Shown: positions 620-11,517 of the stretch, piece by piece
Layout of the letters: each line of letters begins with the position of its first letter
How positions within the stretch are numbered: the first letter of the stretch is position 1
Assembly (NCBI RefSeq): GCF_947503795.1
Contig: NZ_CANNEZ010000001.1
Location: 611,001 to 675,000 of the forward strand
Length of the DNA stretch: 64,000 bases
Direction: 5' to 3'
Source of the DNA: an uncultured Jannaschia sp.
Lineage (GTDB): Bacteria > Pseudomonadota > Alphaproteobacteria > Rhodobacterales > Rhodobacteraceae
Notes under the pieces: model-generated
The model's input: the letters and a program-made list of their open reading frames with translations, nothing else
Database searches by the model: none
What the model was told of the DNA's origin: nothing
Made by a program: the position numbers and the translations under genes

Positions 620-648
620 CTTGAACGCGCGCCTTCCGGTTCCCAGAT
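620..648 (+). promoter_or_regulatory. Possible heat-shock sigma (RpoH) promoter for hsp20
   Basis: CTTGAA at 620-625 and CCCAGAT at 642-648, 16 bases apart, resemble the -35 (CTTGAA) and -10 (CCCCAT-like) elements of sigma-32 promoters. Transcription would start near 655, just before the folded leader of the hsp20 gene. The -10 match is imperfect, so this is an inference from position and partial motif. Confidence 0.4.
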
Positions 649-655
649 CAGTCGC

Positions 656-742
656 GTCGGAGGCCGGTTCCGGGTCCGACGTCGAACGCCCCGTCCGCGC
701 ATCGGAGGGGCACAACCTGTATCGCTTCACGTGAGGATGCAC
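656..742 (+). promoter_or_regulatory. ROSE-like RNA thermometer in the hsp20 leader
   Basis: The leader folds into three consecutive hairpins. Hairpin 1 pairs 656-661 with 675-680. Hairpin 2 pairs 688-692 with 707-711 and 694-697 with 703-706, with G693 bulged. Hairpin 3 holds the Shine-Dalgarno AGGA (734-737) against UCGCU (722-726) with G724 bulged, and extends outward through 718-721 with 738-741. A pyrimidine-rich UYGCU pairing with AGGA around a bulged G just before the start is the hallmark of ROSE elements, which control small heat-shock genes in alpha- and gammaproteobacteria. Heat would melt the last hairpin and free the ribosome site. The fold was derived by hand. Confidence 0.65.
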
Positions 743-1210
743 ATGCGTACCTATGATTTCACCCCGCTCTACCGTGCCAGCGTCGGTTTCGACCGCATGG
801 CCAATCTCGTCGACCGCGCCATGACGGCGGATACGGCGACGACCTATCCCCCCTACAATATCGAGAAGCTGGGCGACGACGCCTACCGCATCTCCATCGC
901 CGTCGCGGGCTTCACCGCCGACGATCTGAACATCGAGGCGCGGGAAAACGCGCTGACGATCACCGCCAAGAAGGCGGGCGAGACCGATGGCCGCACCTAC
1001 CTGCATCGCGGCATCGCGACGCGCGCCTTCGAGAAGACCTTCCAGCTGGCCGATCATGTCCATGTGACCGGCGCCAGCCATGCCGACGGCATGCTGCATG
1101 TCGAGCTGGAGCGTCAGGTGCCCGAGGCGCTCAAGCCGCGCCGCATCGAGATCGCGCCCGGAGCCAAGTCCGACGCGATCGAAGGGACGTCCGAGACCGT
1201 CGAGGTGTAA
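743..1210 (+). CDS. Small heat-shock protein, Hsp20/IbpA family
   Basis: This is a 155-residue small heat-shock protein, an ATP-independent holdase that keeps unfolding proteins soluble in the cytoplasm. The N-terminus [19 protein letters not shown] is typical of the IbpA/HspH group of alphaproteobacteria. The alpha-crystallin domain spans about residues 35-125 ([20 protein letters not shown] onward, ending in a VELERQVPE beta strand). ATG 743 is preferred over ATG 737 because AGGA at 734-737 is correctly spaced for 743, whereas 737 overlaps that site. It appears to be a single-gene unit with a possible RpoH promoter, a ROSE-like leader and a strong terminator. Confidence 0.93.
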
Positions 1211-10269: not shown

Positions 10270-10283
10270 CGGTGTGCTCCACT

Positions 10284-10327
10284 GCCCCAACGGCTTCCTG
10301 ACGGGGCGCGCCTAGAATACCGGAGCA
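10284..10327 (+). promoter_or_regulatory. SAM/SAH riboswitch upstream of metK
   Basis: The sequence matches the SAM/SAH riboswitch known from Rhodobacterales metK leaders. Stem P1 pairs 10284-10288 (GCCCC) with 10303-10307 (GGGGC). The loop holds the conserved AACGGCTTCCTGA (10289-10301), and the ribosome site GGAGCA (10322-10327) pairs with GCTTCC of the loop to form an H-type pseudoknot. S-adenosylmethionine binding stabilises the pseudoknot and hides the Shine-Dalgarno, lowering MetK synthesis. The element ends six bases before the start codon. Confidence 0.93.
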
Positions 10328-10332
10328 CCCCA

Positions 10333-11517
10333 ATGTCATCGCGCAAGAACTTCTCCTTCACCTCGGAATCCGTCTCCGAGGGCCACCCGGACAAGGTCTG
10401 CGACCGGATTTCGGATGCCGTCCTCGACGCCTTCCTCGCCGAAGAGCCCGAGGCGCGCGTCGCCTGCGAGACCTTCGCCACCTCGGGCATGGTCGTGGTC
10501 GGCGGCGAGGTCGGTCTCTCGGACCAGGAGCGGCTCAAGGACTACATGGGCCGCATCTCGGGCATCGCGCGCGACTGCATCAAGGACATCGGCTACGAGC
10601 AGGAGAAGTTCCACTGGAACACCTGCCACGTCATGAACTTCCTGCACGAACAGTCCGCCCATATCGCGCAGGGCGTGGACGCGAAGGCCGACAAGGACGA
10701 GGGCGCGGGCGATCAGGGCATCATGTTCGGCTATGCCGTCGACGAGACGCCCGAGCTGATGCCAGCCCCGATCCAGTACAGCCATGCGATCCTGCGGCGG
10801 CTGGCCGAGGTCCGCAAGGACGGGACCGAGACCGCCCTGCGCCCCGACGCGAAGTCCCAGCTGACGCTCCGCTACGAGGACGGCAAGCCGGTCGAGGTCA
10901 CGTCCATCGTGCTCTCGACGCAGCACGAGAGCGAGGACCAGAGCTCGGACGACATCCGGGCCATCGTCGAGCCGTATATCCGCGAAGTCCTGCCGTCGGG
11001 CTGGATCACCGAGGGGACCGAATGGTGGGTCAACCCGACCGGCACCTTCGTCATCGGCGGGCCGGATGGCGACGCGGGCCTGACGGGGCGCAAGATCATC
11101 GTCGACACATATGGCGGGGCCGCGCCCCACGGTGGCGGCGCATTCTCGGGCAAGGATCCGACCAAGGTCGACCGCTCGGCGGCCTATGCGGCGCGATACC
11201 TGGCCAAGAACGTCGTGGCCGCCGGGCTGGCCACGCGCTGCACGCTGCAGCTGAGCTATGCGATCGGGGTGGCCAAGCCGCTTTCGATCTATGTCGATAC
11301 CCACGGCACCGGCGAGACGCCCGAGGCCGAGATCGAGCGCGCCGTCGCATCCGTCATGGACCTGACGCCGCGCGGCATCCGCGAGCATCTGGGTCTCAAC
11401 AAGCCGATCTACCAGCGGACGGCGGCCTATGGCCATTTCGGGCGTTCGCCCGATGCCGATGGTGGCTTTTCGTGGGAGCGGGTGGACCTGGCGGATGCGC
11501 TGAAGGGCGCGCTCTGA
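10333..11517 (+). CDS. metK: S-adenosylmethionine synthetase
   Basis: This 394-residue methionine adenosyltransferase makes SAM from ATP and methionine in the cytoplasm. Diagnostic blocks are [19 protein letters not shown] near the N-terminus, the [12 protein letters not shown] hexapeptide region (about residue 125) and the P-loop-like [19 protein letters not shown] (about 270). The start ATG 10333 uses the GGAG inside the SAM/SAH riboswitch, so the product controls its own translation. It converges on ribD, with a hairpin between. Confidence 0.97.

Follow-up and report, generated by a model that had tools for sequence, protein, structure and literature searches.

We find that, in an uncultured Jannaschia sp. 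(Rhodobacterales), the leader that precedes a small heat-shock gene of the ibpA type is very probably a ROSE-type RNA thermometer, judging from its sequence and from the corresponding leaders of its relatives. The gene lies near the beginning of the 64,000-nucleotide stretch of DNA analysed here (contig NZ_CANNEZ010000001.1, positions 611,001 to 675,000 of the forward strand; hereafter the window, whose own numbering is used throughout unless stated otherwise). A leader of about 90 bases, predicted to form three hairpins, is kept before hsp20 in almost every one of the 99 leaders compared among the relatives, and from it we infer that translation of hsp20 would be under heat control. A sequence-only reading of the window had proposed such a ROSE-type element, and the proposal is now well supported by the conservation of the leader, by covariation, by the places found with the Rfam model RF00435 and by the match of a model built from relatives to the ROSE element of E. 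coli. The element is real but ordinary: it leaves the understanding of thermosensing unchanged, and its significance is that, on sequence evidence, a well-known kind of RNA thermometer is extended to almost all of the 99 ibpA-type leaders studied in the relatives.

Table 1 Features of the hsp20 locus, in window coordinates
Feature	Position	Strand	Basis
Predicted heat-shock (RpoH/sigma32-type) promoter	CTTGAA 620-625, CCCAGAT 642-648	+	Pattern; predicted start ~655
Hairpin I of the leader	655-681	+	Fold; pair changes in relatives
Hairpin II of the leader	688-711	+	Fold; pair changes in relatives
Hairpin III, presumed thermosensing; UGUAUCGCU (718-726, bulged G724) with AGGAUGCA (734-741), predicted to mask the Shine-Dalgarno	718-741	+	Sequence; fold of 655-745; core in 97/99 leaders; anchored pair counts; covariation
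Anti-Shine-Dalgarno UCGCU, ROSE signature U(U/C)GCU	722-726	+	Sequence and leader comparison
Shine-Dalgarno AGGA	734-737	+	Sequence and leader comparison
hsp20 gene, IbpA type, 155 aa	743-1210	+	Pfam HSP20; reading frame; start from orthologs

The product of the gene is an Hsp20 (Pfam PF00011, E 7e-19) that shares 49% identity over 137 amino acids with E. coli IbpA, and the gene is intact. Because the mechanical open reading frame is already open from 572, the start of hsp20 was placed at the codon 743-745 on the basis of its orthologs and of E. coli IbpA. With this start, the hairpins occupy the 5' leader of a small heat-shock gene of the IbpA type, as is characteristic of ROSE-like elements.

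Direct reading of the sequence gives UGUAUCGCUUCACGUGAGGAUGCA for hairpin III. In its core, U722 pairs with A737, C723 with G736, C725 with G735 and U726 with A734, leaving G724 unpaired, and the stem is extended by pairing of 718-721 with 738-741, including one U-G pair. Folding of 655-745 yields the three hairpins listed in Table 1, with G724 bulged. The sequence-only reading had described a UCGCU/AGGA helix around a bulged G724, an extension of this helix and two hairpins upstream of it; the helix is correct base for base, and the extension and both upstream hairpins are found where Table 1 places them. This anatomy agrees with published descriptions of the ROSE-like type. A passage of PMC11342760 defines it by the pairing of U(U/C)GCU with the Shine-Dalgarno around a bulged G, passages of PMC4288164 and PMC11342760 state that the conserved G is needed, and a passage of PMC4166951 gives the number of hairpins as two to four. 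Correspondingly, the signature of the window pairs with its Shine-Dalgarno around G724, and the three hairpins, conserved with covariation among the relatives, end with the one that would mask the ribosome binding site.

That the element is more than chance would not follow from the sequence of the window alone; it is the comparison with relatives that decides. The window contains four copies of the motif TCGCT-N4-10-AGGA where 3.84 are expected, which is chance level, and the fold energy of 640-760 is unremarkable (z = -1.33), both of which would suit a functionless patch that merely happens to be complementary near the Shine-Dalgarno. Followed by an ATG, the same motif occurs at 21 places genome-wide versus 3 for the reversed pattern, and two of the 21 are the leaders of the two hsp20 genes of this genome.

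For the comparison, a genus set of 20 Jannaschia genomes, including the window's own, was assembled, and the gene is present in 20/20. A protein search confirmed at least 591 places, the best 80 of which were kept, nearly all of them with Rhodobacterales names. The resulting 99 leaders consist of the 20 from the genus and 79 others, Jannaschia rubra having been dropped as a duplicate of a genus row. U(U/C)GCU-N2-14-AGGA is present in the last 45 bases of 97/99 leaders (window included) versus 11/4783 random 45-mers from the same loci. The two exceptions differ in kind. A Rhodobacterales MAG (L097) carries ACGCU with AGGU: the core U-A pair has become A-U by compensatory change, and the Shine-Dalgarno is altered too. 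L019 carries UAGCU with AGGA and has lost one core pair, with A opposite G; in one of the alignments (A2), its row is misaligned in hairpin I.

When the 20 genus leaders are aligned by sequence, two-sided changes that keep pairing are seen at 10 of the 26 pairs, a count reached by 0/500 shuffles, while structures slid along the alignment give 0-4. These changes are spread unevenly over the hairpins (I 3/9, II 6/9, III 1/8), and five of the eight pairs of hairpin III never vary within the genus. Compensatory support for hairpin III consequently comes from the wider set. With a covariance model built from the genus leaders (R1), matches at E up to 1 were obtained in 76 of the 79 named leaders, and all of these matches end at the start codon; the leaders without an R1 match at E 1 are L033, L071 and L088. 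In the 76 sequences from other genera (75 distinct), two-sided changes occur at 20/26 pairs, distributed as 7/9 in hairpin I, 9/9 in hairpin II and 4/8 in hairpin III, in an alignment that was fitted to the structure. Again 0/500 shuffles reach this count, and slid versions give 9-14; as the shuffle controls of both sets ignore relatedness, the covariation counts are not to be read as probabilities.

Hairpin III was also placed in a further, structure-free alignment, for which GCU and AGG were the only anchors. Every anchored row (99/99) carries the G of GCU; the anchor itself requires GCU, yet all rows were caught. Of 98 rows, 59 close the loop with C-G, 25 with U-A and 11 with U-G. At the two outermost positions, pairing is seen in 57% and 65% of the rows, compared with 35% and 39% when shuffled; at the next outer position (A-U, G-U), pairing in the anchored alignment is not above that of the shuffles. 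Compensatory change in the Shine-Dalgarno hairpin is therefore found in three forms: the variants of the loop-closing pair, the core swap of L097 and the outer positions. The sequence-only reading had asked whether pairing is kept across related genomes and had named a lack of covariance as evidence against the element; pairing is kept, with covariation in the aligned leaders, and the feared lack did not come true. Retention of the motif near the start codon in 97/99 leaders, together with covariation in both the genus and the wider sets, refutes a chance origin, which we regard as exceedingly improbable.

Upstream of the hairpins, CTTGA-N13-18 followed by a C-rich minus-10 box is found in 90/99 leaders versus 2/1801 control stretches. 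The distance from the end of the minus-10 box to the ATG is 84-109 bases, and the pattern was widened after the leaders had been viewed. A looser variant of the pattern matched 71 of the 80 named loci. We take this pattern to resemble that of RpoH promoters. A scan for sigma-70 promoters found none, and a sigma-70 promoter for the hsp20 leader was dropped from consideration. From the position of its two boxes in the window (Table 1), the predicted transcription start lies upstream of 718. A start downstream of this position, which the sequence-only reading had named as counter-evidence, did not appear as far as the promoter pattern can tell. Just 5' of the predicted promoter, at 319-540, lies a gene for a small DUF3072 protein (Pfam E 3e-31).

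The Rfam ROSE covariance models, proposed earlier as a check, find nothing in the leader itself: the window holds no match at the gathering score and none in 560-800 even at E 10, so that membership in RF00435, RF01832 (ROSE_2) or RF02523 (ROSE_3) at cut-off was rejected. The relatives were represented by 149 genomes from the order, all of which belong to the window's own family. At E up to 1, RF00435 finds 34 places in 33 of these genomes, and 30 of the 34 adjoin the start of the orthologous hsp20; the other 116/149 genomes have no match at E 1. Only one genome (G176) exceeds the RF00435 cut-off, and there the match lies before a different Hsp20. ROSE_2 reaches its cut-off in 0/149 genomes; at E up to 1 it finds 34 places, 13 of which adjoin a window-type hsp20 or overlap its first 20 bases. 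ROSE_3, a model linked to Pseudomonas, likewise exceeds its cut-off in 0/149 genomes, with matches in 50/149 at E up to 1; its best place (32.6 bits, G004) is before a second hsp20.

A model built from the leaders of 76 relatives (R2) connects these leaders to the known elements more directly. With filters off and five chosen loci searched, R2 matches the ibpA leader of E. coli K-12 over the full model length and with 37.1 bits; by Rfam, the same leader is ROSE_2, with 100.4 bits. Class-wide at E 0.01, R2 matches in 74/289 genomes versus 18/289 for RF00435 (one of them above cut-off), and 8 of the 18 RF00435 places are also R2 places. Across the class, R2 finds 77 places in addition to that of the window, and among the 19 that were fetched an Hsp20 lies directly behind in 19/19. 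Adjacency to hsp20 was obtained directly for L159, whereas it was calculated from a partial match for L154. For the RF00435 loci of the class, hsp20 lies behind 16/18. One locus, L139, gives no match to the hsp20 profile used, yet encodes an Hsp20 of another kind. Two loci of other alphaproteobacteria (L173 and L179) show weak Rfam ROSE matches in which UUGCU...AGGA is kept, with no match to the hsp20 profile behind them.

We therefore count the element among the ROSE elements on grounds of anatomy and, probably, of ancestry, since the RF00435 places lie at hsp20 and R2 finds the ROSE element of E. coli. At their cut-offs, the three Rfam ROSE models miss the ibpA-type leaders of the relatives, and a model of the R2 type would be useful for annotation.

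Comparison with individual elements places the window's leader among them. The ROSE element of E. coli ibpA resembles it in the type of gene and in the order of the hairpins, and its hairpin II is nearly identical to that of a Sulfitobacter locus (L034); the difference lies in the Rfam model for the E. coli type, whose cut-off none of the related genomes reaches. The RF00435 type, first described in rhizobia according to a passage of PMC4166951, shares with the window a 3' hairpin that masks the Shine-Dalgarno before a small heat-shock gene. However, the RF00435 loci of the class mostly have UUGCU where the window has UCGCU, and the best genus ortholog (G002), with 38.3 bits, does not reach the cut-off of 45.

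The predicted response to temperature is gradual. In folds of 655-745 between 20 and 55 °C, the probability that the Shine-Dalgarno is unpaired rises from 0.04 at 25 °C to 0.10 at 45 °C, with no sharp opening. For the E. coli ibpA leader alone, the values at 25, 37 and 45 °C are 0.01, 0.02 and 0.04; addition of 33 coding bases brings those at 37 and 45 °C to 0.14 and 0.18. Since the E. coli leader behaves likewise in the energy model, we do not count the gradual opening predicted for the window against a thermometer.

Inclusion of coding sequence brings a competing fold into view. When 18-58 coding bases are folded with the leader of the window, the Shine-Dalgarno region 734-740 prefers 745-752 (codons 1-4), and the probability of hairpin III is about 0.1-0.3. 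This preference is what would be expected if the Shine-Dalgarno were masked mainly by codons 1-4 and not by UCGCU, any temperature control then acting via the hairpin between Shine-Dalgarno and coding sequence or via a switch of folds. At 37 °C with 33 coding bases, such pairing has a mean of 0.31 in the 20 Jannaschia leaders and exceeds 0.5 in 4/20, but in the 79 other leaders it averages 0.06, compared with 0.61 for the core pairing of hairpin III. Moreover, masking by the codons leaves the 5' strand UAUCGCU, which is kept in nearly all leaders, with no other evident role. As the main masker, the hairpin with the coding sequence was set aside because it is not conserved through the 99 leaders, and we consider that reading very unlikely; where it is predicted in the window, we see in it either a local peculiarity or a shortcoming of the energy model. 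A likewise very unlikely variant is a two-state switch, mainly of this genus, in which the hairpin of the Shine-Dalgarno with codons 1-4 would compete with the ROSE hairpin for the ribosome binding site; if so, translation would depend on which of the two folds forms. We favour more than this switch the idea that the ibpA ROSE elements of alpha- and gammaproteobacteria are one ancestral element, of which each Rfam ROSE model would catch a part.

Taking the leader as a ROSE-type thermometer, we propose the following course of events. The hsp20 mRNA would be made from the heat-shock promoter just upstream, and at normal temperature hairpin III would hide the ribosome binding site. Upon heating, hairpin III would open at its weak region of bulged G and U-G pair, with hairpins I and II remaining folded; ribosomes could then bind to the opened leader, and IbpA would be made. 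Both transcription and translation of hsp20 would in this way respond to heat.

A structured leader might instead serve mainly mRNA stability or the binding of a protein, with no direct sensing of temperature. Hairpins I and II, the stable parts of the leader and those that covary most, are what such a role would lead one to expect, and a passage of PMC10474464 states that E. coli IbpA represses its own mRNA through the 5' UTR, which provides an example of self-repression at an ibpA leader. However, a role of this kind leaves unexplained the conserved bulged G and the motif that pairs with the Shine-Dalgarno, which are common to ROSE elements (passages of PMC11342760 and PMC3669281), and stability or protein binding is in any case compatible with thermosensing. 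As a replacement for the thermometer, we judge it highly improbable.

The sequence-only reading had also suggested that the element could be a first instance in its group, which is not borne out at the level of the order. A passage of PMC3230580, published in 2011, states that in the Roseobacter-clade bacterium Nautella sp. R11 both ibpA and hspD are preceded by typical ROSE-like motifs; the group thus already has a record, in the form of a prediction. Like the window's genome, Nautella sp. R11 has two small heat-shock genes, each with a motif, and the gene type is the same by name; it differs in being of another genus, and in the passage concerned (PMC3230580) the prediction occupies one sentence. 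Among open-licence PMC papers, none was found that joins Jannaschia and an RNA thermometer. Short ROSE-like elements of two hairpins are described for Pseudomonas ibpA in a passage of PMC3669281; as in the window, U(U/C)GCU pairs with the Shine-Dalgarno in the last hairpin. This two-hairpin form (PMC3669281) resembles the leader of the second Jannaschia hsp20, whereas the window element has three hairpins.

This second hsp20 of the same genome (locus L180, Pfam HSP20) has a shorter leader, in which one hairpin is followed by UCGGAUCGCU...AGGACCCGA before the ATG. This ROSE-type leader, of two hairpins, was noted at C1:2254264-2254291 of genome G000 (L180:465-492). The outer stem differs from that of the window element but keeps its pairing register, apart from one A-C mismatch. 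Within the window's genome, R1 matches only the leader of hsp20 743-1210, and that of the second hsp20 is not found by it. Across the genus, U(U/C)GCU...AGG is detected by pattern at 15/19 loci of the second hsp20, and in the remaining four (L028, L180, L182 and L183) GGATCGCT...AGGACCCG is recognised by eye.

Elsewhere in the window, a SAM/SAH riboswitch (RF01727, 46.2 bits) is present at 10279-10327, directly 5' of the S-adenosylmethionine synthetase gene at 10333-11517, which is an ordinary arrangement.
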